A stretch of DNA of 64,000 bases, from the NCBI GenBank assembly GCA_021325235.1, contig JAJPHN010000008.1:1-64000 (forward strand), written 5' to 3'. Below are positions 9,764-55,004 of this stretch, piece after piece (the first letter of the stretch is position 1; the number at the start of each line of letters is the position of its first letter). The translations under genes and the position numbers were made by a program. Source of the DNA: Terriglobia bacterium. Its GTDB lineage: Bacteria; Acidobacteriota; Terriglobia; Bryobacterales; Bryobacteraceae. The notes under the pieces were generated by a model. It saw only the letters and a list, made by a program, of their open reading frames with translations, made no database searches and was not told where the DNA came from.

Positions 9764-9772
9764 GCTCGGCTC

Positions 9773-10660: not shown

Positions 10661-10774
10661 ATGGTACCTGGGCAGCGGCTTTGCTGTGTACGGCTATAAT
10701 ACAACAGTCCCCCGCCCGTATCTTATAGGTGCGGAATAAGCTGTGTGATTCGCACCCGGGCCGCAAATTTCTTC

Positions 10775-12523: not shown

Positions 12524-12526
12524 ATA

Positions 12527-12537
12527 CCTATGATAGG
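12527..12537. promoter_or_regulatory. Palindrome giving both divergent genes a ribosome-binding site
   Basis: CCTATGATAGG is an 11-base perfect palindrome around a central G, in the 18-base gap between two divergent start codons (12523 leftward, 12542 rightward). Read on either strand it supplies ATAGG a few bases before ATG. It may double as an operator. The promoters of both genes must lie inside the neighbouring coding sequences. Confidence 0.45.
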
Positions 12538-12541
12538 GGTT

Positions 12542-13767: not shown

Positions 13768-13793
13768 CTTGAGATATCGTAATATCCCGCCCG

Positions 13794-14918
13794 CTAGCGT
13801 TTCGCCCCTTGCCGGATGCCGAACAGCCGCAGCGCAATTGCTCCAAAGAAATCACGCATCCGCGAATCACGTAAGAACATGGCCTCGAGCAGCTTTATCG
13901 ACGAAGGCGTCTGCCATTCCGGATCTCGCTGCTTGCGCCGCGCAACGATCCCGCTCAGTGTTTCGCGCGGGCGCGTCCGGAATTCATCGAGCATCGCTGT
14001 CTGGTGCACGCAGGAAATCGTGCAGAACGGCGCGCAGCCTTTTGTTTTTGCACCCTCACGGCGCAGATCGTCGGGCGTGTATTGTGCGAGCGGGATTCCC
14101 GGTGTTCCGCGCTGCTGGGAGCAGTAATGCACCAGCCCCTCTTCGCAGATGTAGAGAAATCTTCCGCCGGCGGGACAGTGCCAGGGATTCGGCAAGCCGC
14201 GAATCGTGTTCTGCTGGAAGGCGTCCAGGTGCGCGAAGGAAAACAGTCCGGTACCGAGGCCCAGAATCCGGTCGTAGGCGCTGCGCTGCCGTCGATTCAG
14301 GGCCGCGAGCTGTCCTTCGCCGTCGTGCAGAATGCCGACCGTGCTGTTGAAGCCGAGTTCGCGCGCGCGGGCGGCAATGGTGTACGCGTCTTCCGGTTGT
14401 GCAATCGCGCTGCCCAGCACCGAGTTGATGGTCACATCGAATTCGGCGTATTGAGCGAGCCACTCAAGCTTGCGGTCGAGCACCTTCAGGCTCTTTTTCG
14501 AGACGTCGTCAGGCTGAACGTTATCGATGCTGATCTGCAGGTAATCGAGCCCGGCTCTATTCAGCCGCTTGATGCGCTCCGGCACGAGAAAATAGCCGTT
14601 GGTGATCAAGGTAGCGATGGCACCGCGTTCGCGCACGCGCTGTATCAACAAATCCAAATCGGGATGCAGTGTCGGTTCGCCGCCGCTGAAGGTGATGATG
14701 CTGGTGCCCAGCGCGCCGAGCTTATCGATGCGGCGAAGCATCTCTTCAGCCGGAACCGGAGCCGAGTGCCGGTCGTACTCGTTGCAGTAAGTACAGGAAA
14801 GATTGCAGCGCCGGATGGGGATGATCTGCGCCAGGATCGGATGATGCGGAGAGGCCATCGCGCGCGCAAACATGCGTGCCTCGCGCCAGCGCCGGTGCAT
14901 CTTCCGAATACCGCGCAT
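13794..14918 (-). CDS. Radical SAM protein with C-terminal cysteine cluster
   Basis: I choose the ATG at 14918 (MRGIRKMHRRW); an upstream start at 15011 would overlap the SDR gene. The [4Fe-4S]-SAM motif is RRCNLSCTYCNEYD (C-x3-C-x2-C), followed by the FSGGEPTLHPDL glycine motif and the usual TIM-barrel strands (TNGYFLV, LQISIDN). The C-terminal part has further cysteines (WHCPAGGRFLYICEEG, VHYCSQQRG, GCAPFCTISCVHQ), arranged like a SPASM/Twitch extension that binds auxiliary clusters. The protein is about 374 residues. Members of this group modify peptides, lipids or small molecules; related single genes in Acidobacteriota resemble HpnH-like and Fe-S oxidoreductase families, but no specific substrate is evident. 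The gene lies between the SDR and the lipoprotein on the same strand. Confidence 0.85.
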   Translation of the reverse strand: MRGIRKMHRRWREARMFARAMASPHHPILAQIIPIRRCNLSCTYCNEYDRHSAPVPAEEMLRRIDKLGALGTSIITFSGGEPTLHPDLDLLIQRVRERGAIATLITNGYFLVPERIKRLNRAGLDYLQISIDNVQPDDVSKKSLKVLDRKLEWLAQYAEFDVTINSVLGSAIAQPEDAYTIAARARELGFNSTVGILHDGEGQLAALNRRQRSAYDRILGLGTGLFSFAHLDAFQQNTIRGLPNPWHCPAGGRFLYICEEGLVHYCSQQRGTPGIPLAQYTPDDLRREGAKTKGCAPFCTISCVHQTAMLDEFRTRPRETLSGIVARRKQRDPEWQTPSSIKLLEAMFLRDSRMRDFFGAIALRLFGIRQGAKR

Positions 14919-14961
14919 TCGCCTACTTGGACGATAGCAAGTCCGACGACCAGCGAGGCGC

Positions 14962-15717
14962 TCAGTGCTCGCCGGCCATGCGGTCGTTAAACTGCGCGGT
15001 GAACTCGGCATCCCTGGGACCTGCGCCGTTGCGCAGAAAGGCGACCGGCTGGGTCAGCACTTCATCGGCATCGGTTCCAAGCACACGCATCGTTTCCTCG
15101 ATGAAATCCTTCAGCGGCATTGCGCGCGGGTCTTTGGCCTGCTCGGGTCCCATCAGTTCCGTCTGCACATAGGGCGGCGCGATCTCGAGCACGCGCACGC
15201 GGGTATCGCGCAACAAATACCGCAGTGAGAGTGTGTACGAGTGCAGCGCCGCTTTGGTTGCGCAATAGGTTGCGGTAATTGCCAGGGGCACGAATGCGAG
15301 CCCCGAGGTCACGTTGATGACGCTTGCATCCGGCTGCTGCTTCAGATGTTCGATGAGCGCCGATGTCATCCGAATCGGACCCAGTAGATTCGTGGTGACA
15401 ATGGACGAGACCTGTGCGTCGTCGACGGTTTTCTGCACGTGGTCCGGGCTCATGATTCCGGCGTTGTTTATGAGCACATTCAGCGCCGGAAACTCGGCTA
15501 TGAGTTTCTTCGCCGCCTGCTCGATGCTCTTTGGATCCGTGATGTCGAGTTCCAGTGCTTTCATGCCCGGATTGGCCGCGGTCACAGCCGCCAGTGCAGC
15601 CTGCCGCCTGCCGGAGATGATGACCTGATTACCCGAACGATGCAGCGCTTCCGCCAGTCCGCGGCCGATGCCGGAACCGCCGCCGGTGATGAAAATCGTG
15701 TTCCCTTTGAGTTTCAT
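14962..15717 (-). CDS. SDR-family oxidoreductase (DltE-like)
   Basis: The 251-residue protein is a classical short-chain dehydrogenase. It has TGGGSGIG (11-18) for the dinucleotide, ISGRRQAAL after the second strand (Arg-Arg suggests NADPH), LDITDP, NNAGIM, a serine in NVTSG and Y-x3-K in YCATK. The pattern, including PPYVQTELMGPEQAKDPRAMPLKDFIEETM, matches the DltE/YqjQ-like subgroup of uncharacterised bacterial SDRs, many of which are controlled by a neighbouring HxlR- or TetR-type regulator. The divergent HxlR gene 162 bases away fits that. It is probably the first gene of a leftward unit with the radical SAM gene. Confidence 0.9.
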   Translation of the reverse strand: MKLKGNTIFITGGGSGIGRGLAEALHRSGNQVIISGRRQAALAAVTAANPGMKALELDITDPKSIEQAAKKLIAEFPALNVLINNAGIMSPDHVQKTVDDAQVSSIVTTNLLGPIRMTSALIEHLKQQPDASVINVTSGLAFVPLAITATYCATKAALHSYTLSLRYLLRDTRVRVLEIAPPYVQTELMGPEQAKDPRAMPLKDFIEETMRVLGTDADEVLTQPVAFLRNGAGPRDAEFTAQFNDRMAGEH

Positions 15718-15850
15718 GATTCTGTCTCTTTCCGCCAGCGCGGGATGCTCTCAGGCTCCGTCCTCAGCCGGCCACAATACGAATTGTAGCCAGGTTACTC
15801 TCTTTTGGATAGTAGGCACCTGAAAGTGCTATAGTTACCTCGCAGAGAGT

Positions 15851-15860
15851 GTTTGCAAAC
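15851..15860. promoter_or_regulatory. Palindrome in the SDR/HxlR intergenic region, candidate operator
   Basis: GTTTGCAAAC is a perfect 10-base palindrome, 20 bases before the HxlR start codon. A TATAGT at 15830-15835 could be a -10 element for the rightward gene, which would place the palindrome just after the transcription start. HxlR-family proteins bind short palindromes near their own promoters; the match to this regulator is inferred from position. Confidence 0.45.
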
Positions 15861-15879
15861 AACGGTGAAGTTTTCCTAA

Positions 15880-16290
15880 ATGCCTGCCGCACCACAGAAG
15901 CGCTCGTCTCCTTCGTATGAAGAGCTCGATCCGCAGATAGAGGCTCTGGTCAATGAGGTCATCGAACGGGTGGCAGATAAATGGACCATGCTCGTTCTCG
16001 AAGTCCTTGATGTACAGGGCAAATTGCGCTTCACTCGCATCAGCGAAGCCATTCCCGGCATTAGTCAGAAGATGCTGACCCAGACGCTGCGCCAGATGGA
16101 GCGCGACGGGCTGGTCAAACGCACCGTCTATCCTGTTGTTCCGCCACACGTGGAATACGAACTCACCGAAATCGGCCGTTCGCTGGGCGAAGCGTTCTGC
16201 GGCGTCTGGCTGTGGGCCGAAAAGAACCTCAAGAAGATCGAGAAATCCCGCGCGAAGTTCGATCAGCGCGCCGCCGTTCGTTTCGGGTGA
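15880..16290 (+). CDS. HxlR-family winged-helix regulator
   Basis: The 136-residue protein has the HxlR/MarR-like winged helix: VADKWTMLVLEVLDVQGKLRFTRISEAIPGISQKMLTQTLRQMERDGLVKRTVYPVVPPHVEYELTEIG is the full recognition and wing region, here given only as landmarks (VADKWT, GKLRF, ISQKML, LRQMERDGL, PPHVEYELT). The family often responds to aldehydes, quinones or oxidants and controls an adjacent reductase. Unlike many HxlR members, it has no cysteine in the first 25 residues (only one, CGVW, near the end), so a thiol switch at the usual place is absent. It is divergent from the SDR gene, its probable target. Confidence 0.92.
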   Translation: MPAAPQKRSSPSYEELDPQIEALVNEVIERVADKWTMLVLEVLDVQGKLRFTRISEAIPGISQKMLTQTLRQMERDGLVKRTVYPVVPPHVEYELTEIGRSLGEAFCGVWLWAEKNLKKIEKSRAKFDQRAAVRFG

Positions 16291-40696: not shown

Positions 40697-41211
40697 AAAC
40701 GACTTTGCCCGATAATCGCTCCCGTTTCCCCATACTGCTCATTGAGGACAGCGAACCCGATGCGCAGATCTTTGAGACCGCACTGAAGCAGGCCTCCGCA
40801 CGCGCCCAGATTTATTGGGTGGCAACCGCGGCTGAAGGTCTGGAATTCCTGCGCCGGAACGGACGCTTCCGCGATGTGGGTCCGGCGCAACTGGTCGTGC
40901 TCGATTTGCATCTAGGCGGAGAAAACGGTTTCGATGCTCTGCGGCAGATCAAATCGGATCCGGAACTTTGCCGGACGCCGGTGGTCATGCTGACCAGCTC
41001 GACCCATCAGAACGACGTCGACCTGGCGTATTCTCTCGGCGCGAATGCGTATTTTAAAAAGCCGATGACGCTCGAGTCGTATATCGAGCAGGTGCGCGTG
41101 CTTGTGCATCACTGGCTGGACCTGGCCCTCTTGCCATCGCCCGTCCGCTCGGAACGTGGTTCGCTCGGGATTCACCGGAGGAGCCGCATTCCCGAGGAGA
41201 CAGGCATATAA
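40693..41211 (+). CDS. Response regulator, single receiver domain
   Basis: The frame begins at a TTG (40693) overlapping the CBS stop. The 172-residue protein is a receiver domain of the Rcp/CheY type: ILLIEDSEPDAQIFETAL (acidic pocket), VVLDLHLGGENG (phospho-acceptor Asp), VVMLTSSTHQNDVDLAYSLGANAYFKKPM with the Thr/Ser and Lys positions. There is no DNA-binding output domain; the C-terminal 35 residues (HHWLDLALLPSPVRSERG) are unassigned and basic. Rcp-type regulators normally partner with phytochrome-like or hybrid kinases; none is nearby. Confidence 0.88.
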   Translation: MKTTLPDNRSRFPILLIEDSEPDAQIFETALKQASARAQIYWVATAAEGLEFLRRNGRFRDVGPAQLVVLDLHLGGENGFDALRQIKSDPELCRTPVVMLTSSTHQNDVDLAYSLGANAYFKKPMTLESYIEQVRVLVHHWLDLALLPSPVRSERGSLGIHRRSRIPEETGI

Positions 41212-41248
41212 TCGAGCAGGCATTTTCTTCTCGGAAAGGATCTCTCGA

Positions 41249-41956
41249 ATGCGGAATGTCTCGATCTGCTTCGCGGCGGCGGCACTGATCGCCGTTCAGC
41301 TCGCGGCCCCTCAGGCACAGGCTCAGGAAGAAACAACGCACGCTGTTACCGGAGGCGGAATTTCGGTTCCGGGCTGGAAAGGCACCCTCGATCCGCGCGA
41401 CACGCAGAGCGGCAAATCGGTGAACGATGCCAAGTTGAGCGAAGAGGGCGGCGCGCTGCACGTCGTCACCGGACCGGCCATCGCGTATTGGAATCCGGCA
41501 AACCAGGCGACGGGCGATTACACGGTTTCGGCCACTTTCACCGAGCCGAAGTATATGGATCGCAACACGCATCCGCATCCTTACGGGATCGTGATCGCGG
41601 GTAACGACATGGGCACGCCGCAGCAGAGCTACTTGTATTGCGCGGCGTATGGCAACGGAAATTTTATTGTGCGCGGCTTTGGACCTGAGCCGTTTCAGAT
41701 GAATGGCCGGCGCGGCGAAGAGAACGCGGCGGTGCATAAAGCGAGCGCGCCGGGCCAGCCTGTGACCCAGGAGATTGCGATGTCGGTGAAGGGCGGGAAG
41801 GTGAGCTGCTCGATCAACGGCACGGAAGTGGCGAGTTACGACAAGTCAGCGCTCGTTACGTCCGGCAAGTTGAAGAGCACGGACGGCGTCTATGGCATTC
41901 GCTCGGCGCATAACACGGACGTGACGGTCTCGAATCTGAAGCTCACAAAAGATTAG
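41249..41956 (+). CDS. Secreted protein with a possible concanavalin-like fold
   Basis: The start is the ATG at 41249, with GGAAAGGA upstream and a signal peptide (VSICFAAAALIAVQLAAPQAQAQ). The mature domain of about 210 residues has a strand-rich sequence: ISVPGWKGTLDPRDTQSG, YTVSATFTEPKYMDRNTHPHPYGIVIAGN, SYLYCAAYGNGNFIVRGFG, VSCSINGTEVASYDKSAL, DGVYGIRSAHNTDVTVSNLKLTKD. This resembles DUF1080/laminin-G-like folds, which are often glycan-binding or 3-keto-glycoside-hydrolase-like. I cannot identify an active site. It stands alone between the receiver gene and the carbohydrate locus. Confidence 0.65.
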   Translation: MRNVSICFAAAALIAVQLAAPQAQAQEETTHAVTGGGISVPGWKGTLDPRDTQSGKSVNDAKLSEEGGALHVVTGPAIAYWNPANQATGDYTVSATFTEPKYMDRNTHPHPYGIVIAGNDMGTPQQSYLYCAAYGNGNFIVRGFGPEPFQMNGRRGEENAAVHKASAPGQPVTQEIAMSVKGGKVSCSINGTEVASYDKSALVTSGKLKSTDGVYGIRSAHNTDVTVSNLKLTKD

Positions 41957-42140: not shown

Positions 42141-42920
42141 TCATTTGACGGCAATTCCTGCTTTAAGACCGCCATCGATCAGGTAATCGCCGCCTGTGCA
42201 GAATCCCGCTCGTGAGGATAGAAGGAAAGCGGCGAGTTCGGCTACTTCCTCTGGCGTGCCGACGCGACCGAGCGGATGCGCCTGGCCGAATCTCTCGAAG
42301 ACACGCTCAACCGGAATATCAGGCGAAAAGATGCGCGCGGCGCGCTCGAGCATCGGGGTGGCGATCGAACCGGGGCTGATGGAATTGACGCGAATGTTAT
42401 CGGCCGCGTGGTCGAGCGCGAGCGCACGTGTAAGGCTCAGGATTGCTCCTTTCGACGTCGCATAGGCAGCCACGCCGCGCTGGCAGGCATGTCCCTGGAC
42501 GGAGGCGAGATTCACGATGGCTCCGCCGCCGCGCTTTTTCATTTCAGGAATCGAGAACTTTGCAAACAGAAAGATGCCGGTGACGTTCACGCTGAGGCAG
42601 CGGTTCCAGGTCTCCAGATCGGTTTCCAAAACATCGCCGAAGGGATGAATGGCTGCCGCGTTTGCCAGGATGTCGACACCACCGAAGGAAGAGACGGCCC
42701 ACCCTACGGCCTGGCGCACATCGCTGGGGTTGGAAACGTCGCACTCCTGAACGTGAATCGCAATCCCTGCCTCCCGTGCCTCTGCTTCGCACTGGTGATT
42801 GGCCGCCTCGTCTACACCGCAGGCCAGCACTTTGCCTCCACCACGTGCGAGGCGCATTGCGATCGCTTTGCCGATTCCGCTCGTACCGGTTACGATGGCT
42901 GCTTTACCTTCGAATTCCAT
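42141..42920 (-). CDS. SDR-family oxidoreductase of the mannoside locus
   Basis: The ATG at 42920 overlaps the uxuA stop by one base, so I prefer it to the upstream frame start. The 259-residue protein is a classical SDR with Ser (NLASVQG), Y-x3-K (YATSK) and the SPGSIATPM and GGDYLIDGGL ends. Two features are off-pattern: the cofactor loop reads TGTSGIG, one residue shorter than the usual TGxxxGxG, and the NNAG motif is replaced by LANAAA. An Asp after the second strand (GVDEAA) suggests NAD. It sits with mannonate dehydratase and a sugar transporter, so it may be a D-mannose (aldose) dehydrogenase or an SDR-type fructuronate reductase; both are inference. Confidence 0.85.
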   Translation of the reverse strand: MEFEGKAAIVTGTSGIGKAIAMRLARGGGKVLACGVDEAANHQCEAEAREAGIAIHVQECDVSNPSDVRQAVGWAVSSFGGVDILANAAAIHPFGDVLETDLETWNRCLSVNVTGIFLFAKFSIPEMKKRGGGAIVNLASVQGHACQRGVAAYATSKGAILSLTRALALDHAADNIRVNSISPGSIATPMLERAARIFSPDIPVERVFERFGQAHPLGRVGTPEEVAELAAFLLSSRAGFCTGGDYLIDGGLKAGIAVK

Positions 42921-43999
42921 CAGGCGCGGCTCCCCTCCACCGCTCGTGCGCAAGCGCGCAAATAGCCCATGGCAAACGCCATACCGGCATGCCACGGCGC
43001 ATCGCAGGTGAGCTGCGGAGCATGATCCGGAATAATCATGCCCTGGAAATCGTTTCGCTTCAGAATTTCGAAGATGCGAAGAACATCCACGTCTCCCTCG
43101 TCGATGTGCGACTCCTTGTACTCAGGCACTTTTCCTTTCACATTGCGCAGATGGATATAGGCGATCCGACCCTGCGCGCTGTATCGATCGACTGCTTCGT
43201 AAACGTCGCCGTCGCGCATTTCGGCAATGGTACCTACACAGCACTCGAGCTGGTTCGACGGGCTGCGATTGATGTCGATCAGTTTCTGATACAGATCGGG
43301 ACGATAAACGAGTCTTGGCTGTCCGCGCAAGAACGGCAAAGGCGGATCATCCGGATGCGCCGCCAGCCGTACACCGGCGCGCTCTGCAACCGGCAGGCAC
43401 TCATTGAGAAAATCCGCCACACGCTGCCAAAGCTGCTCATGCGTGGCGGACGGTACGAAACCTGCAGGCGCTTGTGAATCGTAGATCATGTTCCAGACCA
43501 TCCCGTTCGGAATCGGCTCGTCAAGCGGACCATTCATGCCCACACTGATGGCGCCGCCTCGTGCGAATGGCCCCGACACACGCCCCGCCACGCCGGCAAT
43601 GCTGAAGTTGTATCCAATGACGGGAATGCCGATGTCTCCGACGCGGCGTATGGTGTCTTTCAAGCCTTCGAGTTGCTGCTTCTTGCGCGGGCCATCGAGC
43701 AGCACGTCGGACCAGTGAGCCGGATCAAAGTTTTCGATCGCTTCCCAGATGAGTCCGGCGTCTTCGATCTGCTTCTTGATCTCACGCATTTCTTCCGCGG
43801 ACCACAACCGATCCGGATCGCCCGCATAGCCCCAGCCGGCGAGTTCACCGACGGGCTGGTCGTGGCGAGGATTGGCGGAGCCACCTTTGTTGAAGTAGTC
43901 GACGAGATGTACGACCACATGCGTGGCGCCCACCTGGCGTGCGAAGGCAAGGTGCGATGGATTCAGCATGTGCCGGTAAAGCCCAAAACCGAGTTTCAT
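42920..43999 (-). CDS. uxuA: Mannonate dehydratase-family protein
   Basis: The ATG at 43999 overlaps the transporter stop by four bases. The 359-residue protein follows the UxuA TIM-barrel: WEAIENFD, IPVIGYNFS, RLAAHPDDPPLPFLRGQPRLV, LECCVGTIAEM, IAYIHLRNVKG, ESHIDEGDVDVL and GMIIPDHAPQLT carry the expected metal ligands (His of HPDDPP, Cys of CCVG, His of HLR, Asp of DH). It dehydrates D-mannonate to 2-keto-3-deoxy-D-gluconate. The E. coli protein has HGH where this has HAP after the last Asp. At 359 residues it is of the shorter subgroup. It is the middle gene of the leftward unit. Confidence 0.9.
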   Translation of the reverse strand: MKLGFGLYRHMLNPSHLAFARQVGATHVVVHLVDYFNKGGSANPRHDQPVGELAGWGYAGDPDRLWSAEEMREIKKQIEDAGLIWEAIENFDPAHWSDVLLDGPRKKQQLEGLKDTIRRVGDIGIPVIGYNFSIAGVAGRVSGPFARGGAISVGMNGPLDEPIPNGMVWNMIYDSQAPAGFVPSATHEQLWQRVADFLNECLPVAERAGVRLAAHPDDPPLPFLRGQPRLVYRPDLYQKLIDINRSPSNQLECCVGTIAEMRDGDVYEAVDRYSAQGRIAYIHLRNVKGKVPEYKESHIDEGDVDVLRIFEILKRNDFQGMIIPDHAPQLTCDAPWHAGMAFAMGYLRACARAVEGSRA

Positions 44000-45381
44000 A
44001 ATGTCTTGTCCAGCGTCGGGCGAGGCAGCCAGATGCGGCTGATCTGCTCGAGCGAGTAGCCTTTCGTCTCCGGAACGAAGAGAAGTACAAAGAGAAAATC
44101 GATGGCGGCCATAAACGCGAAAACGAAGAATGCGCCGTGGGTGCCAAGATGGCTTTGCATCAAAGGGAAGAACTGAGCGGCCAAATAGGCGAAGATCCAG
44201 ATGGCCGTGGTGGCAATCGACATCGCGATGCCGCGCACTTTTGTCGGGAAAATCTCGGAGATGATCACCCAGCAGACTGCGCCGTTTCCTACTGCGTGCC
44301 CGGCGACAAAGGCCATCACACCTGCGAGTATTCCGTTGCTGGCGGCTCGCGAGAGATACAGGCAACCGACAATCACCAGAGCGGCGGTCTGCGCGGCAAT
44401 GCCCCACAAAAGCAGTGTTCTGCGCCCGGCTCTGTCCACCAGCCAGATCGCCAGCATGGTGAAAACGAGATTCACAATACCGACCAGCACGGATTGAAAA
44501 AATGCGTTCGATGCGCTTTGTCCGGCGCTCTGGAAGACGACCGGAAGGAACGCGAGCAATGCTGTGATTCCGCTGGTTTGGGAAAGCGCTGCGAGCGCGA
44601 ACCCAATCAGCAGCGCGCGCCGGTACGGGCCATCGAGCAGTTCCCGGGACCCGCCATGCTCTTGGGCGAGAGAACGGCTGATCGAAGCGGCCTCGTCCGC
44701 GGCGATCGACTCGCCATTTATGGCCGCCAGAACCGAGTGCGCCTGGGCCAACCGACCGGTCTTCATGAGCCAGCGCGGACTCTCTTTCGAAAAGGCGATG
44801 ATGGCGGCAAAGACAATAGCCGGTAGCGCCGCCACAGCGAACATCCAGCGCCAGCCTCGCGCAATCTGCCAGGCTTCTGTGCCTGAAATCTCGATGCGCA
44901 TGTTGACATAAACGGCACACAATATCCCGATGACGATGCCGAGTTGGTATAGAACCACAAGCCGCCCCCGCATCTTCGCCGGTGCGATTTCGGCAATGTA
45001 CATGGGCGCCACGATGGACGCGGCGCCGGTGCCGATGCCGCCGATCATTCGCCAGCCGACGTATTGGGGGAAGCTGGCAGCCGCCCATACTCCTGCCGAG
45101 GAAAGTGCAAAGCAGGCCGCGCAGCCGTACAGTGCTCGTTTCAATCCGAATCGATCCGCAATCGCTCCGGCCAGAGCCGAGCCGATCAGCGAGCCGACTA
45201 GTGCGCAGCCAGCGGCCCAGCCGACCGCGGCGGGATCGAGCCTAAAGTATCTCGCCAGATGCGCGATGGCTCCGCTGATCACGATGTTGTCGTAGCCGAA
45301 CAAGAATCCGGCCAGGAACGCTACTGCGCTGGCAAGGAACAGAACTGCGCTGCTCCCGCCCGCCCGCGCTGTTTCGGTCAT
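43996..45381 (-). CDS. MFS sugar transporter, sugar porter family
   Basis: I place the start at 45381 (MTETARAGGSSAVLF); upstream codons in the frame look non-coding. The 461-residue protein has 12 predicted spans with sugar-porter landmarks: FLFGYDNIVISGAI, GAIADRFGLKRALYG, RMIGGIGTGAASIVAPMYIAEIAPAKMRGRLV, SKESPRWLM at the central loop (usual PESPRWL), LSQTSGITALLAF, VDRAGRRTLLL and FVPETKGYSLEQI. It probably moves a hexose or pentose with protons across the inner membrane. The mannosidase gene is divergent, 93 bases away, and uxuA follows with a four-base overlap. Confidence 0.92.
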   Translation of the reverse strand: MTETARAGGSSAVLFLASAVAFLAGFLFGYDNIVISGAIAHLARYFRLDPAAVGWAAGCALVGSLIGSALAGAIADRFGLKRALYGCAACFALSSAGVWAAASFPQYVGWRMIGGIGTGAASIVAPMYIAEIAPAKMRGRLVVLYQLGIVIGILCAVYVNMRIEISGTEAWQIARGWRWMFAVAALPAIVFAAIIAFSKESPRWLMKTGRLAQAHSVLAAINGESIAADEAASISRSLAQEHGGSRELLDGPYRRALLIGFALAALSQTSGITALLAFLPVVFQSAGQSASNAFFQSVLVGIVNLVFTMLAIWLVDRAGRRTLLLWGIAAQTAALVIVGCLYLSRAASNGILAGVMAFVAGHAVGNGAVCWVIISEIFPTKVRGIAMSIATTAIWIFAYLAAQFFPLMQSHLGTHGAFFVFAFMAAIDFLFVLLFVPETKGYSLEQISRIWLPRPTLDKTL

Positions 45382-45474
45382 GTTTGCCAATCGCGCCTTA
45401 GACACTGACTTTTTCTTCGCCCAAGAGAAAGAAACAATGGTATCGTAATCGAGGTTGACTCTGAGAAACAAGTT

Positions 45475-48400
45475 ATGAAGATACCGCAGGTATGGTTTTT
45501 CTCGGCTGTGCTGGCTGTTGCGGCGTGTGCGAATGCACGAACAATTTGGGAAATCGGCAAGTTCGACCAATCACCGGTTGAGTTTTCGCAAGGTCAGAGG
45601 GATACGGCCAGCTTCGTGGTGGGCAGTAGCGAAGCAGCGCGGGATTGGCCCTCCGGCCAGGCGAGCGGAAAGACGTATCGCATCTCCTTTCAGCTCGAAT
45701 CAGTCCAGGGGTCGTACGAGCTGAAAATCGGAGCGCTGATCGATCACCCGCGCGTGCCGGCGTTGAAGATCGATGTCAACGGACACGCAGGAATGTTCTA
45801 TCTGCACCCGGAGTTGAGTTACTCGCGTAGTGATTTCGACTATGCATTCGATCCGCACGAATCGCAGAGCATCATTACGATAAACGTGCCCGCAGCCTTT
45901 CTGAAGCGGGGCGCTAACTCGATTGCGATTACCTGTCTGGACGATCCGGTCACGCCCGGTGGCGAAGAAGAGATTGGCGGGATCAGCTACGACGCTTTGA
46001 GTTTTGCTCAGGAACCTGCAGCCGCGCACTCGGCCGGCGAACCATCCATAACCGCGAGCCCGACGATCTTCTATCACAACGCAGCTGGCGGACTGGTCGA
46101 GCTGGTAGACGTCTTCGTCCGGTTCCCGCGCGCCTGGAGTGCCGATTCAGCTGCTCTCGTCGTGAATGGCCACCGAGCGGAGGCTCAGTATGCTGCCGGA
46201 GAGTTCGGGGAGGTTCGCCTGAGCTTTGAAGTGCCTGAGTGGACGGGAACCGCAACCGGCGCTTTCTCGCTTTCGGCGCGCTCCCGGCATAACACACAGA
46301 TACCGCTAACCGCGCAACGTAAGTGGACCATGTATATAGTTCCCCACACCCACTTAGATGTCGGCTACACCGACTACCAGGGGAAAGTGGCCGAAACACA
46401 GGCGCGAGTACTAAGTCAGGCCGCGTCCCTGATTGCCGAACATCCCGATTTCCGGTTCTCCATGGATGGATCGTGGAATCTGCAGCAGTTACTCGCTACT
46501 CGCCCCAAGGGAAAGCAGGACGAGATACTCGGTCTGATTCGGAGCGGCAAGATGGCTATGCCGGCGCAGAATTGCAACTTACTAACGGGCTATGCTTCGC
46601 TGGAGACGCTTTATCGGTCGCTGTATGCCTCGAAAGAACTGTCGACCCGCTATCACTTGCCTTTTGAATACGCCAACATAACTGATGTTCCAACCTATTC
46701 CGGCAGTTATCCTTCCGTTCTTGCAAGCAGCGGAGTGAAGTATTGGGTGGCCGCCTCGAACAACGATCGCGCGCCCATCTTTTTTTACGATCATTGGAAC
46801 GAGAAATCGCCGTTTTGGTGGATCGGGCCGGATGGGCAGAAGGTGCTGTTCTGGTACTCGCGACACTACATGCAGGTTCAGACGCTCTTCGGTCTTCCGC
46901 CGCAGTTAAATGCTGTGCGCGAATCGCTGCCCATCTACTTACAGGCGTATTCCCAACCGAGTTACAAGCTGGATGTGGCGTTGATCTACGGAACGCAGGT
47001 CGAGAACACCGACCTGTTTCCGGCGACGGCGACTTTCGCAAACGACTGGAACAGGCAGTATGCGTACCCGAAGCTTGTGTACGCCACTTTCCCCGACTTC
47101 TTTCATTATCTGGAGCAGCATTACGGGAACCAGCTCGACAGTTTCAAAGGCGACGGAGGCGGCTACTGGGAGGATGGCATCGGCAGCGATGCGTTTTACG
47201 CGCAAGAGGATCGAGAAAACCAGAATCGAGCGCTATCCGGCGAAATTCTTTCGACGGCTATGCATTCGTTCGATCCCACCCTGAACCCTCCGAGCGGGCT
47301 CCTGGAGGATATCTGGCAGAACATTATCTTGTTTGCGGAACATACGTGGGCTTCGTACAACTCCGTGTCGCAGCCGAACCATGATGAGACGATTCGGCAA
47401 CTGCGAGTAAAAGATGATCGCGCCGATCGAGCACATCTCGAGATTGAAGACTTGATGAATCGTTCGCTTAGTCAACTGGCCAACGACATTCATATTCCCA
47501 AGAACACGCTGGTCGTTTTCAATTCCTTGAACTGGGCACGCAACCTGGTCGTGGAAACGGACCTGTTCGAACATCCGACGTTAACCGATTTGACAACGCA
47601 TGAGGTAGTTCCGCTCGAGGTTTTGTCTCGCAAGGAGGGCTTCCTGCATGTGCGCTTCCTCGCGAAGGATGTGCCAGGAGTCGGCTATAAGTGCTTCGCG
47701 ATCGAGTACGCCAAACAGGGCGGACCGCCAGAACCCGCTTTTACGAAGCAGGAAACAATAGAGAACCAATTCTATCGTGTGACGGTTGATGAAGCGTCAG
47801 GCTCGCTGAGCAGTATCTTTGACAAACAATTACAGCGGGAGTTAGTAGATTCGAAGAGCCCTTACAGGTTTGGCCAGTACCTATACGTAACTGGAGGCGA
47901 CGGCGACACGCAGATGGTGAATCCGTTTCCGGCGCTTCCGCCCGGGAAACTGCAGCTTGATCCCGCTTCCCATGGAAGGTATCTCGGCGTCGAGAAACTT
48001 CCCTGGGGTGAATCGATCCGGCTTACCAGCTCCAGTACAAACACGCCGCTCATCGAAACGGAGATCTTGCTTTTCAATGACCAAAAGAAGATCGAATTCC
48101 GATATCACCTGAAAAAGACAGAGACGACGAAGAAGGAGGGCGTCTACTTTGCCTTTCCGATAGCTGCTGCGAAGCCGGACTTCCTATACGCAACGCAGCA
48201 ACAGTGGATCGATCCAGCGCGCGACCTGATGAAGGGCGGGAGCCTCGAGTGGTTTAACGTTCAGGGCTGGATGGCGGTTCACGACTCCAGCGCCGCTGTT
48301 GGAATCGTCCCGCTCGACGCCTCTTTGGCAAGTTTCGGCGATATCAATCGTGGTCTGTGGCCCGGAAGCTTCGCGCCCAGGAGCAGCACAATCTTCTCCT

Positions 48401-48879
48401 ACGTTATGAACAACTACTGGCATACGAATTACCGAGCCGGGCAAGGCGGCGATTTCACCTTCCGGTACGCTCTCACCAGTGCTCCGCAATTCGACGGCGG
48501 AGCGCTGAGCAAGCTTGGCTTAGAAGAGATGCGCCCGGCGGAACTGAACTATGTCGTTAGCCAGGACAAGCCCGGAGACCCAGACCGGCCTTTGCCTGCC
48601 GAAGGAGCGGATTTCTTGCGCACCACCGGCGAAGGGGTGGCGCTTGTTACGTGGAAAAAGGCTGAAGACGGGAACGGTACGATCGTGCGCCTGCAGGAGA
48701 TCGCAGGCAAACCGGCTAAAGCCGCAATTGAACTCACAAAGTCCAGGATTACGTCCGCGCAACTCTGCACAGGGGTGGAAGACAACTTACGGACGCTGGC
48801 TGTTTCCGGTGATCAGGTGCGACTTACTTTGCGGCCGTTCGAAGTTCTGACCGTGCGCTTACTTGCAGAAGGCAAGTAG
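45475..48879 (+). CDS. Secreted GH38 alpha-mannosidase with N-terminal beta-sandwich
   Basis: The 1134-residue protein has a signal peptide (PQVWFFSAVLAVAACANA). Residues about 25-180 form a beta-sandwich like domain III of rhamnogalacturonan lyases (WEIGKFDQSPVEF, SYELKIGALIDHP, GANSIAITCLDD), probably carbohydrate-binding. The GH38 catalytic domain starts near 285 with VPHTHLDVGYTDY, giving Zn ligands around H291-D295. The probable nucleophile Asp lies in ANITDVPTYSGSY, and a later ligand His in FAEHTWASYN. The C-terminal beta-rich half (about 700-1134, from NSLNWARNLVVETDL) is the standard GH38 beta-domain set. It would release mannose from alpha-mannosides outside the cytoplasm. It is followed by the TonB-dependent receptor after 124 bases, which has its own promoter. 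Confidence 0.93.
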   Translation: MKIPQVWFFSAVLAVAACANARTIWEIGKFDQSPVEFSQGQRDTASFVVGSSEAARDWPSGQASGKTYRISFQLESVQGSYELKIGALIDHPRVPALKIDVNGHAGMFYLHPELSYSRSDFDYAFDPHESQSIITINVPAAFLKRGANSIAITCLDDPVTPGGEEEIGGISYDALSFAQEPAAAHSAGEPSITASPTIFYHNAAGGLVELVDVFVRFPRAWSADSAALVVNGHRAEAQYAAGEFGEVRLSFEVPEWTGTATGAFSLSARSRHNTQIPLTAQRKWTMYIVPHTHLDVGYTDYQGKVAETQARVLSQAASLIAEHPDFRFSMDGSWNLQQLLATRPKGKQDEILGLIRSGKMAMPAQNCNLLTGYASLETLYRSLYASKELSTRYHLPFEYANITDVPTYSGSYPSVLASSGVKYWVAASNNDRAPIFFYDHWNEKSPFWWIGPDGQKVLFWYSRHYMQVQTLFGLPPQLNAVRESLPIYLQAYSQPSYKLDVALIYGTQVENTDLFPATATFANDWNRQYAYPKLVYATFPDFFHYLEQHYGNQLDSFKGDGGGYWEDGIGSDAFYAQEDRENQNRALSGEILSTAMHSFDPTLNPPSGLLEDIWQNIILFAEHTWASYNSVSQPNHDETIRQLRVKDDRADRAHLEIEDLMNRSLSQLANDIHIPKNTLVVFNSLNWARNLVVETDLFEHPTLTDLTTHEVVPLEVLSRKEGFLHVRFLAKDVPGVGYKCFAIEYAKQGGPPEPAFTKQETIENQFYRVTVDEASGSLSSIFDKQLQRELVDSKSPYRFGQYLYVTGGDGDTQMVNPFPALPPGKLQLDPASHGRYLGVEKLPWGESIRLTSSSTNTPLIETEILLFNDQKKIEFRYHLKKTETTKKEGVYFAFPIAAAKPDFLYATQQQWIDPARDLMKGGSLEWFNVQGWMAVHDSSAAVGIVPLDASLASFGDINRGLWPGSFAPRSSTIFSYVMNNYWHTNYRAGQGGDFTFRYALTSAPQFDGGALSKLGLEEMRPAELNYVVSQDKPGDPDRPLPAEGADFLRTTGEGVALVTWKKAEDGNGTIVRLQEIAGKPAKAAIELTKSRITSAQLCTGVEDNLRTLAVSGDQVRLTLRPFEVLTVRLLAEGK

Positions 48880-49003: not shown

Positions 49004-52000
49004 ATGACACTCATACGCAAACTCGGCAGCTTCGGCTTGTTTGTTTGGTTAGGCATCGCTGTAATCGCAAACGGCCAGACGACGAACGGCTCCATCACGG
49101 GGACGATCACGGACCCTTCGGGATCGGCGGTCGCCGGTGTGCAGATCCAGGTCAAAAACCAGGACACGGGCGAGCAGCGTAGCGCGACCACGATCGAGAA
49201 TGGCACGTACAGCATTCCACAATTGCCGCCAGGCCGCTACAACATCACCGTCGAAAAACAGGGCTTTGCGAAGGAGGCGCGAACCGGAGTGCCGTTGCTG
49301 GTAAATCAAAGCGCAACGCTCGATTTCACTCTCACTGTTGCGGCTGTTTCCGAAACTGTCGAAGTGACGGGCGCGCCGCCTGCGCTCAATACCACGACAG
49401 CCACATTAGGCGATGTGATTGAGCACCAGCAGATCGTGGATCTCCCGCTGAACGGGCGCAATTTCACACAGTTAACGCTGCTAACCCCCGGTGCAGCACC
49501 GCAGGAATCCGGCCAGCAAGGCGCTTTCACCGTCAAGCTGGGCGCGGGCGCGATCAGCCCTTCGGTAAACGGGCAACGAGGGCAGCAGAACAACTTCACG
49601 ATGGACGGCCTGCTGAATAACAACATCTACACCGATACCTGGGCGATCAGCCCGCCGCCCGATGCACTGCAGGAATTCAACGTCCAATCCCACATCACCG
49701 ATTCGCAATTCTCTATCTCCTCGGGAGCGAACATCAACATTGTCAGCCGCTCCGGCACGAATCAGTTTCATGGTGATCTCTGGGAGTTTTTTCGCAACGA
49801 CGTGCTGGATGCGCGTAACTTCTTCGACCAGACCAAGCCTCCCTACCGGCAGAACCAATACGGGGTTGCGTTCGGCGGTCCGGTTATCAAGAACAACACC
49901 TGGTTTGAAGCGTACTGGGAAGGTTTCCGCTCTGTTCAGAGCCTAAGCTATTTTGCGAGCGTCCCAACACAGGCCATGCGCAACGGCGATTTCTCCGGGA
50001 TTCTCGGGGCGCAGGTCGGCGTCGATAGTCTGGGGCGCCCGATGTATGCCAACGAAATCTACGATCCGCTCACGAGCCGGCCCGATCCGACGCATCCCGG
50101 CACGATTTTGCGAGATCCGTTCCCGAACAATGTCATTCCGACCGCCCGGCTCAACGCAACTACTTTATTGGTTCTGCAGAAATACTACCCCCAACCGAAC
50201 CTGAATGTCGGGCCCAGTGTTCTCCCGAATTACGAGTTCACCGGAAGTAACAACACACAAAGCGATCAGACCGGCATACGCGTCGATCACCGGTTTGGTG
50301 ACAACGATACGATCTTCGGCCGGTACAATCGCTCGAATGCGACGTTGCTACGGCCCGAGTCGCTTCCGAGTTATCAGCAGTCTCTGGTCAATTACGCCCA
50401 GACCTTTGCGCTCGGCTACACACACTTGTTCGGACCGACCGTGGTGCTCAACATTCGCTATGGTTACACGAACACTAATTTTGGCCAGTTCGATGCGCCA
50501 TCCGGTCAGGCATTCATAACACAGACAAACTTTGCGCAACTCGCACCGGCCAAAAACGGCCTCGCACTTGGCCCGAATATGGGCATTTCGAACGGCTACA
50601 CGGGTATTTCCCAGTTTGCGATCCCGCTTGGACCGCAATATAACCACGACGGCCATGCCGACGTGTCGATCGTGCGCGGCAAGCATACTTTAGGCGCCGG
50701 TGCCATGATCTATCACATCCACAGCTTTGACGATGGCTGGGGCATGGGACCCAGCTTTACGCAGAATGCAACGTCGCAGGGTGGCGTTGTCAACGGCACG
50801 GGATCCGGTCCCGCCAGTTTTATGCTTGGATTGCCCGATAGCATCTTCGGATTTCTAGGTAACACGTCAGCCGACGAGCGTGGCTGGTGGTACGGCGGTT
50901 ATGTGCAGGATCAGTGGCAAGTATCGTCCAAGCTGACCGTCACCTATGGATTGCGGTATGACTTCGTGGAGCCGCCCAGCTACGGAAGCAAAATTGTATC
51001 CGGCCTGAACGTGCTCACCGGTAATTTCCTTGTGTCCGGCGCTGCACCGCCGCTTTATCCATCCCCTAACGTGCGCAAGACCTATTACGATCCCTACTAT
51101 AAAGGATTCCAGCCGCGTTTTGGTGCCGCTTATCGAGCGGGATCCAAGACGGTATTACGAGCGGCTTACGCCATGTTTGACGACCATAATAACGTGCTGG
51201 TCCAGGAAACGCAGGATCCGCGTATCTCATGGCCGCAGGGCGTGGGCGTGTCGGTCGTCGATCTGAACCGCGGCTTTCCCACGACCTATTTCAACAACCT
51301 GCCTACTTATGCGTCGTTCTTCAATCCGCTACAGCCATATGTCGCTTTCGGAGCGGATCCGCGCAACAAAGTACCGTACGCGATGGAGTACAACGCCGGA
51401 GTGGAGCAACAACTTCCGGCAGCGATGGTACTGGCTGTAAACTATGTAGGCTCGCTCGGACGACACCTCTTCATTCAGCCCACAGCAAACACGGCGCTGT
51501 ATCCCGGTCCCGGCGCAGTATCGGCACGCCAGCCCTTCCCGCAATACGGAGGCTCCTTTTCTTTCGACGAAAATGTGGGTAATTCCAGTTACAACGCCCT
51601 TCAGGTAAAGTTACAGAAAAGCCTGTCGTTTGGCTTGAACTTCCTCGCTTCGTATACCTGGTCCAAATCGCTCGACATTCAATCGGAGGGGCAGTCGGGC
51701 AGTATCGAAACGATCTATGACTTGCGCCGGGATTGGGGACCCTCCGATTTCAACCGTTCCCATCTCTTTGTTTTTAGCGGAATTTACCAGCTACCGTTTG
51801 GGAAAGGAAAAGCGCACTTAGCAAACGCGAATGCGTTTACGACAACACTGTTAGGCAACTGGAATGTGGGAACCATTGTCACGCTTAACAGTGGTCAACC
51901 ATTCAGTATTTCGGCCGGCGGCGACATTGCTAATGTGGGCGGCGGCTCTCAGCGCGCGGAGGTCGTCGGCGACCCACAATCCGGCTTTCAACAGAGCAGA

Positions 52001-52294
52001 CTGGAATGGTTCAACACTGCGGCATTTGCGCTTCCCGCACCTTACACGTTCGGCAACGAGGGACGCAACAATCTGACGGGTCCGCCATTGAGGAACGTCG
52101 ATTTCATCACGTATAAGGACTTCCTGTTTACCGAACGAATGCGACTGCAGTTTCGCGCTGAGTTCTTCAACATTTTGAACCACGTAAACTTTGGTTTGCC
52201 GGATACAAACGTGCAGGACACGTCTTTCGGTCAAATCAACTCCACAGCTACTGCTCCGCGCGAAATACAATTCGCCTTGAAGCTGATGTTTTAA
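49004..52294 (+). CDS. Oar-like TonB-dependent receptor with carboxypeptidase regulatory domain
   Basis: The 1096-residue outer-membrane protein begins with a signal peptide (FGLFVWLGIAVIANG). Residues about 25-110 form a carboxypeptidase-regulatory-like (transthyretin-like) domain, GSITGTITDPSGSAVAGVQIQV to YNITVEKQGF. The plug follows with LPLNGRNFTQLTLLTPG and a YGVAFGGPVIKNN segment. The large beta-barrel ends in phenylalanine (FALKLMF), as expected for BAM-assembled proteins. No TonB box is evident by eye. This receptor type is abundant in Acidobacteriota and not paired with SusD. It probably imports oligosaccharides from mannoside breakdown, as judged by context. It is followed by TPR genes. 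Confidence 0.92.
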   Translation: MTLIRKLGSFGLFVWLGIAVIANGQTTNGSITGTITDPSGSAVAGVQIQVKNQDTGEQRSATTIENGTYSIPQLPPGRYNITVEKQGFAKEARTGVPLLVNQSATLDFTLTVAAVSETVEVTGAPPALNTTTATLGDVIEHQQIVDLPLNGRNFTQLTLLTPGAAPQESGQQGAFTVKLGAGAISPSVNGQRGQQNNFTMDGLLNNNIYTDTWAISPPPDALQEFNVQSHITDSQFSISSGANINIVSRSGTNQFHGDLWEFFRNDVLDARNFFDQTKPPYRQNQYGVAFGGPVIKNNTWFEAYWEGFRSVQSLSYFASVPTQAMRNGDFSGILGAQVGVDSLGRPMYANEIYDPLTSRPDPTHPGTILRDPFPNNVIPTARLNATTLLVLQKYYPQPNLNVGPSVLPNYEFTGSNNTQSDQTGIRVDHRFGDNDTIFGRYNRSNATLLRPESLPSYQQSLVNYAQTFALGYTHLFGPTVVLNIRYGYTNTNFGQFDAPSGQAFITQTNFAQLAPAKNGLALGPNMGISNGYTGISQFAIPLGPQYNHDGHADVSIVRGKHTLGAGAMIYHIHSFDDGWGMGPSFTQNATSQGGVVNGTGSGPASFMLGLPDSIFGFLGNTSADERGWWYGGYVQDQWQVSSKLTVTYGLRYDFVEPPSYGSKIVSGLNVLTGNFLVSGAAPPLYPSPNVRKTYYDPYYKGFQPRFGAAYRAGSKTVLRAAYAMFDDHNNVLVQETQDPRISWPQGVGVSVVDLNRGFPTTYFNNLPTYASFFNPLQPYVAFGADPRNKVPYAMEYNAGVEQQLPAAMVLAVNYVGSLGRHLFIQPTANTALYPGPGAVSARQPFPQYGGSFSFDENVGNSSYNALQVKLQKSLSFGLNFLASYTWSKSLDIQSEGQSGSIETIYDLRRDWGPSDFNRSHLFVFSGIYQLPFGKGKAHLANANAFTTTLLGNWNVGTIVTLNSGQPFSISAGGDIANVGGGSQRAEVVGDPQSGFQQSRLEWFNTAAFALPAPYTFGNEGRNNLTGPPLRNVDFITYKDFLFTERMRLQFRAEFFNILNHVNFGLPDTNVQDTSFGQINSTATAPREIQFALKLMF

Positions 52295-52305
52295 TGCTGG
52301 GTAGG

Positions 52306-52327
52306 GGCCCGTCTCCCTCGGCGGGCC
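52306..52327 (+). other. All-GC hairpin between receptor and first TPR gene
   Basis: GGCCCG (52306-52311) pairs with CGGGCC (52322-52327) around a 10-base loop. It is right after the receptor stop (52294) and just before the TPR start. No T-run follows. It may protect the receptor mRNA or lower expression of the downstream genes. It is a short stem, so the role is tentative. Confidence 0.4.
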
Positions 52328-53857
52328 GTGCTCATCATGCTCCTGTTACCGATTCTGCTGTTTGCCGCTGCGGGATCGTGCGAGCAAAACCTCGGACCCG
52401 CTATCACAGCGCTGCAGCAACGCGAGGCAGCTCACGCGCTCGAATACTTACAGCCGCTTCGAGCCAGCTGTGCACAGTCAAGCTCCTACTATGAATTACT
52501 CGGCCTTGCGAGCGAACTGGCGGGACAGAAATCAGAAGCTGAACGGGCACTGGAATCAGCCGTCAAACTAGATTCGCGTTCGCCTCGACTCCTGACCGAG
52601 CTTGGCGCAACACTGTTCCAAAACGGCAAGCCGGCGGTTGCGGCAAGATACCTTGATCAATCGCTCAAGATTGATCCGGCTAACTCGACGACAATTAAGT
52701 ACGCAATCGGGGCGGCGGTCGCAACGAAAGACTGGAGGCGAGCCGCCGACCTGTTCGGCCCGTTGCAGCTGGAAACCAATAGTTCCCTTCTCCAGAGCGA
52801 GCCGGTGCTGCTCGTGTGGTTCGCTCAGGCCATGGTAGAGACGGGGCGCCTCGAGCAGTTAGACTCACTCCTCTCGTCACAGCGCGGGTCGCTCTCTCCA
52901 GGTCTGCTCTTCTCGCTTGGAACTATTTTTGGGCAGCATGGGCTGTATCAACGCGCAGTCGACACTCTCGCGCAGATACCGGTCGCATCTGCGGATTCTC
53001 CCGTCTTCTTCAATCTCGGACTCGCGTATTCGCATCTACGCCGCTTCGAGCAGGCGCGTGCAGCGTATTTTCAAACAATCGACAAGCATCCGAACGATGT
53101 GGATGCCTACTTCCACGTCGGCGTTGATTACGCAGCATCGGCCCAACCTCGCTTTGCCATTCCGTGGCTTTACCGCGCGCACAGCCTTGCCCCTCAGCGC
53201 GCCGATATCACGTACGCGTTAGCAGAGCAGTTGATTGGGCTGCAATATCTCAACAGCGCGAAACAACTTCTGTCGGACGCACGGACCCGTACAGCAGCTG
53301 AGCCCGTCCTGTTGGTAGCGGAAGGGGATCTGAAACTGGCAGAGTCGGACCCTACTGCGGCGGCTTCCCTTTTTGAACTCGCTTTGCGACGTAAACCCGG
53401 ACTGCCAGCTGCTTCCGCTGGCCTGGCTCGAGCTTACACAGAGTCCGGGAAGCCTGGGCTCGCACGAGGCGTTCTGGAAACCGCGCTTGTCCATGACCCG
53501 CAGGATCCGAGCATTAACTCCGAACTTGGCCTGTTAGAAGAGAAGCAGGGGAACTGGTCCGCAGCATTAAACCATCTCACCTGCGCATGGAAACAGGATC
53601 AAGCCAATCCCAGAACGGCTCTGGCGCTCGCGCATGTTTACGAGAGAATGAATCGGCCCAGCGAAGGGTTGACTGTGCTTGATGCGATCGCTCCGATGGC
53701 GGAGAATTCTCTTGCGTACCATCTCGAACTCGCGCGCATTTACAGCGCGCTCGATCGCCGTTCGGAAGCAAAGGCCGAGCAGGATAAAGTTTCGGCTCTG
53801 CAAAATCAAAGTCAGGATGCGCTTCACTTTGACAATCCGGGCACGTACATTCGCTAA
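52328..53857 (+). CDS. Exported TPR-repeat protein A
   Basis: The 509-residue protein may start at GTG 52328 or at the ATG at 52337 (MLLLPILLFAAAGSCEQ); the latter gives a tidy signal peptide. It consists almost wholly of tetratricopeptide repeats: units such as SSYYELLGLASELAGQKSEAERALESA, LTELGATLFQNGKPAVAARYLDQSLKIDP, FFNLGLAYSHLRRFEQARAAYFQTIDKHP, and INSELGLLEEKQGNWSAALNHLTCAW show the 34-residue period. A Cys (GSCEQ) follows the hydrophobic stretch, but the residues before it fit a lipobox only loosely. It may scaffold proteins or bind a ligand near the receptor. It overlaps the next gene by 41 bases. Confidence 0.85.
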   Translation: MLIMLLLPILLFAAAGSCEQNLGPAITALQQREAAHALEYLQPLRASCAQSSSYYELLGLASELAGQKSEAERALESAVKLDSRSPRLLTELGATLFQNGKPAVAARYLDQSLKIDPANSTTIKYAIGAAVATKDWRRAADLFGPLQLETNSSLLQSEPVLLVWFAQAMVETGRLEQLDSLLSSQRGSLSPGLLFSLGTIFGQHGLYQRAVDTLAQIPVASADSPVFFNLGLAYSHLRRFEQARAAYFQTIDKHPNDVDAYFHVGVDYAASAQPRFAIPWLYRAHSLAPQRADITYALAEQLIGLQYLNSAKQLLSDARTRTAAEPVLLVAEGDLKLAESDPTAAASLFELALRRKPGLPAASAGLARAYTESGKPGLARGVLETALVHDPQDPSINSELGLLEEKQGNWSAALNHLTCAWKQDQANPRTALALAHVYERMNRPSEGLTVLDAIAPMAENSLAYHLELARIYSALDRRSEAKAEQDKVSALQNQSQDALHFDNPGTYIR

Positions 53858-55004
53858 GCCGGCGCGTCTGCTCTTTCTGCTCGGAGCATGCACCGGCGCT
53901 CTGCTTGCTGCGTGCGATCTGAACTCCACTTTCGATGAGGTTAGTCACTTGCTGCAGCAGCGGCAATACGAAGCCGCAGCAAAGCTGCTGGATGAAGTGC
54001 GTGCCTGTCCAGGGCACTCCCCGCTTGAGAAATTTCAGCTCGGATGGCTTTACGGCCGTGCACGACAATATGAAAAGGCATTGAGCATTTTTGACGGTTT
54101 GCCGCGCGATGTGCCGGATCCTTTAACCCACGACTATGCGGCTGCGCTGAGCCGGTTTGAATTAGGTCAGTATCAAAAGGCGATTGCTTTGCTGAAGCCG
54201 GATCGGGCTTCGGGACTTGTGGATTCCAAGAGTATCAACTTACTGGCCGTTTCATACTCCAAGCTGGGTTTGTATACCGAAGCCTATGCTGTCCTTTCTC
54301 AGCAGCTTCAGCGTAATAACAGGGATCTACCTACTTACCTCAACCTGATCACAGTGTGTGCCGAAGGCGGTGACCTCGCCAAAGCCGGGGCGGTTGCGGC
54401 GGATGCTCGCAAGCAATTCCCTCAATCCGCTGACGTCCCCATTCTGCAAGGTGCGATCAATGAACAGCTTGGCCGTTCGGACCAGGCACTTGCCGATTTT
54501 TCCAGTGCTGCTGCGCTCGCGCCGTCCAGAGGCGATGCGAGATTCTTCATGGCGCTCGTGGAATACAAGCGAGGAAGGTTCGACGCAGCCCTGTCAGTCC
54601 TGCATAACGCAGAACGCGACGGAATCGCCGACTCCGATCTCTATTATTTGGCCGCGGAATGCCTGTTGAAACTGCAGCCGGAGAATCGCGACGCTGCTTT
54701 GGCGGAGCTCAATCGCGCGATCAACCTTAACAGCGAATCTGTTTCTGCACGCACGTTGCGCGGCAAACTGCTTCTAGACGCCGGGCGCGCGAGCGAGGCA
54801 TCAGGCGATCTGGAAACGGCGCACAAACTCGATCCCGCGTCGCGAACGGCTCTTTATAATCTGGCCAGAGCGTATCGCGCGGTAGGCCGTGCCTCCGAGG
54901 CTCAGGCATTATTCAGCCAGTTGCGAAGGACGGCGCCCGATACCGTGAACGAATTCGCCGACTCTCGTCTGAACGGCGTTTTGAGCGGAACGGACTCGCA
55001 ATGA
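53817..55004 (+). CDS. TPR-repeat lipoprotein B
   Basis: The ATG at 53817 lies inside the end of the previous gene; it puts a lipoprotein signal at the front (RLLFLLGACTGALLAAC, LAAC lipobox, Cys near residue 33). The 395-residue protein has TPR-type helix pairs: DEVSHLLQQRQYEAAAKLLDEV, FQLGWLYGRARQYEKALSIFDGL, YAAALSRFELGQYQKAIALLKP, INLLAVSYSKLGLYTEAYAVLSQQL, LQGAINEQLGRSDQALADFSSAAAL, ALYNLARAYRAVGRASEAQALFSQL. It would be anchored to the membrane and face the periplasm or outside. SusD-family proteins are also alpha-helical TPR-type lipoproteins, so a receptor-partner role is possible. It overlaps the next gene by four bases. Confidence 0.85.
   Translation: MRFTLTIRARTFAKPARLLFLLGACTGALLAACDLNSTFDEVSHLLQQRQYEAAAKLLDEVRACPGHSPLEKFQLGWLYGRARQYEKALSIFDGLPRDVPDPLTHDYAAALSRFELGQYQKAIALLKPDRASGLVDSKSINLLAVSYSKLGLYTEAYAVLSQQLQRNNRDLPTYLNLITVCAEGGDLAKAGAVAADARKQFPQSADVPILQGAINEQLGRSDQALADFSSAAALAPSRGDARFFMALVEYKRGRFDAALSVLHNAERDGIADSDLYYLAAECLLKLQPENRDAALAELNRAINLNSESVSARTLRGKLLLDAGRASEASGDLETAHKLDPASRTALYNLARAYRAVGRASEAQALFSQLRRTAPDTVNEFADSRLNGVLSGTDSQ

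Follow-up and report, generated by a model that had tools for sequence, protein, structure and literature searches.

Organization of the locus

How mannose released from alpha-mannosides enters metabolism is the question raised by a locus in which a gene for a predicted exported GH38 alpha-mannosidase stands back to back with genes for a sugar porter, a UxuA-like protein and an SDR. The locus lies in the window, the whole 64,000-nucleotide stretch of DNA analysed here, which comes from an acidobacterial MAG (G000) of 5.03 Mb and 95.7% completeness. The alpha-mannosidase (1134 aa) is encoded on the plus strand at 45475-48879. The minus strand carries an MFS sugar porter, the presumed mannose importer (43996-45393; TIGR00879 over its cut-off), a UxuA-like protein of 359 aa, presumably a mannonate dehydratase (42920-43999), and an SDR of 261 aa, presumably an NAD-dependent mannose 1-dehydrogenase (42141-42926). 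Neighbouring genes of this trio overlap by 4-7 bases, a layout by which they are predicted to form one operon. The starts of the MFS and GH38 genes are 81 bp apart, and the divergent intergenic region between them (45394-45474, from the gene coordinates) is the presumed promoter site. All four genes are full length. Neither a uronate isomerase nor UxuB is encoded in the operon, and tblastn gave no credible match to a lactonase or RraA in the window, so that the idea of a decayed copy of either gene there was rejected.

With a probability of about 0.7, the genes of this locus supply the first half of an oxidative, non-phosphorylating mannose pathway. Outside the cytoplasm, GH38 would free mannose from alpha-mannosides, and the MFS porter would take it up; the SDR would then oxidize mannose to mannonolactone, which would open spontaneously or by the action of a lactonase, and the UxuA-like enzyme would form 2-keto-3-deoxygluconate (KDG) from mannonate by dehydration. 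The KDG would in relatives be split to pyruvate and glyceraldehyde by the RraA-type aldolase of the operon, while in the window genome an enzyme other than cluster-type RraA would act on KDG. What the data show directly is the gene content, the layout of the operon, its conservation and the UxuA fold; the substrates and directions given to these steps are presumed from sequence and genome context. The initial annotation had proposed the same passage from mannose through mannonolactone to KDG, and the comparison of related loci given below speaks in its favour; the unit of transporter, dehydratase and SDR that it had described is confirmed by Pfam and NCBIfam matches, with refined coordinates.

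Two flanking regions were also noticed. Just past the SDR, at 41102-41956, lies an ORF with a signal-peptide-like N-terminus when read from an in-frame ATG, and without a Pfam match. At 49004-55004, 3' of GH38, an Oar-type outer-membrane protein and two TPR proteins are encoded; as such genes are absent beside GH38 in the related locus L052, they were left out of the unit.

The GH38 alpha-mannosidase

The protein matches Pfam PF01074, PF07748 and PF17677 over their cut-offs, and consists of N, C and C2 domains preceded by an N-terminal CBM-like PL4-domain-III (Pfam/NCBIfam). Alignment with the GH38 proteins of related clusters, which fall into several distant types, shows that the catalytic Asp and Zn-site residues are kept, i.e. 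the HxD motif (H293/D295), the nucleophile-position D404 and H623. Its N-terminus is an export-signal-like stretch, so that the earlier description as a secreted alpha-mannosidase holds at the level of prediction. No solved relative was found by sequence (phmmer against the PDB).

The UxuA-like protein

The UxuA-like protein matches PF03786 with 175 bits (cut-off 23.7) and stays below the two NCBIfam mannonate dehydratase cut-offs (145.5 of 191 and 122.6 of 199.55 bits), which places it in a divergent subfamily and not with canonical UxuA. The solved sequences closest to it are mannonate dehydratases. Its AlphaFold model (pLDDT 79.7) gives Z-scores of 32.0, 30.5 and 30.2 with the solved mannonate dehydratases of S. 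suis, E. coli and E. faecalis, respectively, followed by sugar isomerases/epimerases with Z of at most 23.7. The metal-ligand positions H215, C254, H283 and D325, together with H326, are invariant wherever aligned among 90 relatives. The roles of the metal ligands of the family (His, Cys, His, Asp) and of Tyr325 are assumed here to be those in the S. suis enzyme; the position of this tyrosine is occupied by His in the window protein and in 76 of the 90 relatives, and by Tyr in 7. Taken with the genome context, sequence and model make it very probable that the window protein acts as a mannonate dehydratase.

Across 200 genomes of the order, orthologs of the window protein share at least 54% identity with it, whereas the other matches listed share at most 38%, apart from one short fragment at 41%. 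One scan of named genomes returned 467 UxuA-like relatives, and among the best 80 of these 467 loci, which were read, 65 are without GH38 or GH76, so most relatives do not stand near GH38. In the UxuA-like tree the GH38-context proteins lie nearly together (17 rows, three changes against a shuffled mean of 16), with moderate support for the deeper branches (SH-aLRT 83-87). A UxuA paralog on contig C22 of the window genome was rejected as the relevant copy, being related to the window protein at about 100 bits and having no such cluster around it.

Glucuronate-type loci

In Verrucomicrobiota and Planctomycetota, many UxuA-like genes are accompanied by a GH115 alpha-glucuronidase, GH8, TRAP or MFS_2 transporters, or an SDR bearing the motif NAGIHLKK; by their gene content such loci are of a glucuronate type. 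UxaC is present in 15 of 15 sampled genomes with a UxuA-like gene in such a locus, and canonical UxuA was found in 0/15 of them, only the UxuA-like type occurring, at roughly 114-144 bits. This combination makes the UxuA-like protein very probably their mannonate dehydratase, barring an enolase-superfamily ManD. Mannonate would then be the intermediate that glucuronate-type and mannan-type contexts share. All five sampled Bacteroidota of the GH38/GH76 kind possess canonical UxuA as well (375-443 bits), and the UxuA-like copy there accordingly looks dedicated to the mannan locus. UxaC was dropped as a test in Bacteroidota, where it is uninformative because most carry it elsewhere in the genome.

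These loci lead to the strongest alternative, in which the SDR would be a fructuronate reductase replacing UxuB, UxaC encoded elsewhere would supply fructuronate, and GH38 would trim a mixed mannose/glucuronate polymer. Apart from the service of the family in Verrucomicrobiota, the window genome itself lends this some weight, as it has a divergent UxaC (C25:13454-14743, locus L150; 265 bits) adjoining its own MFS gene, and its SDR reads IH where the glucuronate-context SDRs read IHLKK. The genome of L053 also has a divergent UxaC (257 bits), other sampled genomes mostly scoring 520-715 bits. UxuB-type PF01232 was found neither in the window genome nor in its seven congeners (8 genomes). On the other hand, UxaC was found in none of the seven congeners, among them three that carry the operon (G152, G193 and G116); the SDR is just 28-33% identical to the two glucuronate-context SDRs tested and is without their KK; and the route has no place for the lactonases of related clusters. 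We therefore regard the glucuronate route as unlikely. The initial annotation had rightly noted that the unit lacks a uronate isomerase and a classical fructuronate reductase, and had named the mixed polymer as its alternative; the latter has lost ground, the divergent UxaC of the window genome being what still speaks for it.

The SDR

For the mannose pathway, the SDR would carry out the first oxidation. It is a classical SDR by Pfam, and NCBIfam names it 'glucose 1-dehydrogenase' just over the cut-off. Its best PDB matches are to 3VTZ, a 'glucose 1-dehydrogenase' of Thermoplasma volcanium, which leads by a wide margin (2e-57; 46% identity), and in third place the aldohexose dehydrogenase AldT of T. 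acidophilum (4.5e-45; 38% identity), close behind an unrelated Rhizobium SDR. The catalytic Ser, Tyr and Lys are present in the SVQ and YxxSK segments, and the SVQ and HP segments are common to the window SDR and AldT. One residue is missing from the glycine motif (TGxxGxG, here TGTSGIG), and NNAG reads NAAA, both features being found also in L041 and L052. At the selectivity position of AldT, which we take to be Glu84, the window SDR and those of L052 and L053 have His, while the SDR_L104 type among the cluster SDRs of Bacteroidota has Glu there. In AldT, a pocket Glu discriminates mannose from glucose (PMC3891874). A tree with Thermoplasma references leaves the relations among the SDR groups unsettled, and a fold comparison does not discriminate, since all 999 chains give Z of at least 8; no Thermoplasma entry appears in the best 50 of the 999.

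The substituted selectivity position and the NCBIfam name suit a second alternative, that of an oxidative pathway for other or many aldoses, in which GH38 would be a neighbour contributing one among several sugars, with an SDR that would prefer, for example, glucose; sequence does not reveal SDR specificity. It is less probable than the glucuronate route. The dehydratase family points to mannonate, and GH38/GH76 recur with the UxuA-like gene in two phyla, both of which speak against it.

A partial ortholog of the SDR (75% identical) adjoins an SMP-30 lactonase in a genome of another genus (G182, locus L179), an association that fits C1 oxidation. No intact SDR was found in two relatives: none was detected in L054, and the L055 copy (11074-11514) has lost residues 82-195 in frame, and with them the catalytic Tyr, with lactonase and RraA intact alongside; the deletion is possibly an assembly error. 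Another enzyme may thus perform the oxidation in some relatives. That the window cluster is a decaying remnant whose pathway no longer works, as the odd cofactor motifs, these SDR losses and the missing RraA and lactonase might suggest, is very improbable, because the four genes are full length with overlapping ends and the SDR shares 74-75% identity with those of L052 and L053, the former with the same short glycine motif and NAAA.

Related clusters in other genomes

The divergent arrangement of GH38 and the MFS-UxuA-SDR operon is kept in three close relatives and recurs in Bacteroidota with other SDRs and lactonases, which argues against chance. Where relatives with this cluster are named, they are MAGs assigned to Acidobacteriaceae and to Bryobacterales/Bryobacteraceae. 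Some congeners extend the arrangement with a gene for an RraA-type aldolase, and two genomes have a gene for an SMP-30 lactonase as well. In Bacteroidota (Maribacter, Arenibacter, Sunxiuqinia) the clusters combine GH38, and in some cases GH76, with MFS, the UxuA-like protein, RraA, an SDR of another kind and a lactonase of family PF10282. The SDRs of these clusters that were tested share at most 36% identity with the window SDR, so two SDR kinds are distinguished, and the lactonase differs likewise, SMP-30 in Acidobacteriota and PF10282 in Bacteroidota. Dehydrogenase, lactonase, dehydratase and aldolase are all encoded together in several Bacteroidota loci; of these four parts, the window has only the dehydrogenase and the dehydratase. 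Judged by gene content, the window holds a reduced version of a cluster in which, elsewhere, genes for a lactonase and a putative aldolase are present too.

The association was quantified over the 80 loci read. Of the 15 GH38/GH76 loci, 13 have RraA within 9 kb, against 5 of the 65 others (Fisher 2e-9), and 9 have a lactonase nearby, against 3 of the 65 (4e-6), P values that are too small because the counts ignore kinship. Relatives of the window MFS occur in 14/15 GH38/GH76 loci and 1/65 others. By family, the RraA of the clusters is an RraA-like aldolase, and it retains an Arg-Asp pair that aligns with the HMG/CHA aldolase 3NOJ; we infer that it cleaves KDG, an activity for which no report concerning the RraA family was found in the literature searched.

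Some loci have further neighbours. In L116 (292-11047) RraA and the UxuA-like gene have as neighbours a PQQ-type dehydrogenase, enolase, phosphoglycerate mutase and a glycosidase of GH63/MGH1-like type, a set that would suit entry of glyceraldehyde or glycerate into lower glycolysis, as though one cluster covered the route all the way to PEP. L039 (about 7000-16100) has RraA and the UxuA-like gene in a layout similar to that of L116, where the scan covered the glycosidase, which is GH63/MGH1-like. The mannan clusters of L070, L110 and L124 (Maribacter, Arenibacter and an uncultured Bacteroidetes) also encode an extracellular solute-binding protein, an enoyl-CoA hydratase and a CoA-transferase III.

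Considered together, these clusters might represent a complete bacterial oxidative mannose pathway across Acidobacteriota and Bacteroidota, in which an RraA-family KDG aldolase would act last. Its dehydrogenase, of either SDR kind or possibly a PQQ enzyme, would have been replaced repeatedly, as would its lactonase, which is of the SMP-30 or the PF10282 type; we give this wider proposal an even chance. The loci suggest how alpha-mannan may reach central metabolism without a kinase, and offer probable functions for a widespread UxuA-like subfamily, with its several hundred relatives, and for the RraA-type aldolase. Among the named isolates with these loci are Maribacter luteus, Arenibacter palladensis and Sunxiuqinia elliptica, in which the question is testable.

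Comparison with known pathways

According to PMC6901390, a mannose-specific oxidative pathway had gone undiscovered, and one was rebuilt in vitro with AldT, ManD and KDG aldolase of T. acidophilum. The genes of AldT and ManD are adjacent in T. acidophilum (PMC6901390, citing Kopp et al. 2019), so that this route resembles the window in having an SDR mannose dehydrogenase and a mannonate dehydratase encoded side by side and in being phosphate-free to KDG; it differs in being archaeal and in vitro only, and the text consulted describes no GH38 or transporter (PMC6901390). Oxidative mannose use has been predicted for natronoarchaea, where mannonate dehydratase genes likewise lie in mannan-degradation clusters with mannanases, and an RraA-family gene in one of them (PMC10963439). 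Those clusters, however, are archaeal and directed at beta-mannan (GH26/GH5/GH2), a KDG kinase and a KDPG aldolase are predicted, and the dehydrogenase is only distantly homologous to AldT (PMC10963439).

The Ashwell glucuronate pathway (UxaC, UxuB, UxuA) likewise converts mannonate to KDG by a UxuA-family enzyme, but the window operon has an SDR in place of UxaC and UxuB, and its relatives a lactonase in addition. Non-phosphorylative fucose and rhamnose pathways such as those of SAR202 are similar in proceeding from a sugar dehydrogenase to a sugar-acid dehydratase with no kinase, and use enolase-superfamily (COG4948) dehydratases (PMC10444878), unlike the xylose-isomerase-fold UxuA-like protein of the window. 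No bacterial oxidative mannose pathway was found in the non-subscription literature searched, in agreement with the initial annotation, which had taken a bacterial locus joining such an SDR to GH38 and UxuA to be new. The window locus is probably a bacterial variant of a route that we found proposed only for archaea.

Other genes of the window genome

The initial annotation had suggested looking elsewhere for a lactonase and a KDG aldolase; the related loci encode a lactonase and a putative aldolase, and in the window genome neither a PF01081 aldolase nor cluster-type RraA was found. Four PF00701 proteins are encoded in the window genome and could include a KDG aldolase. Its own SMP-30 genes were rejected as the missing lactonase, the best one being situated in a GH42 galactose-type locus. 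This locus (contig C22, about 146-160 kb; L149) brings together GH42, an enolase-superfamily dehydratase, an SDR, the SMP-30 lactonase and Oar-type proteins. The dehydratase is nearest to galactonate dehydratase, under the curated cut-off, and the locus is probably an oxidative galactose counterpart.
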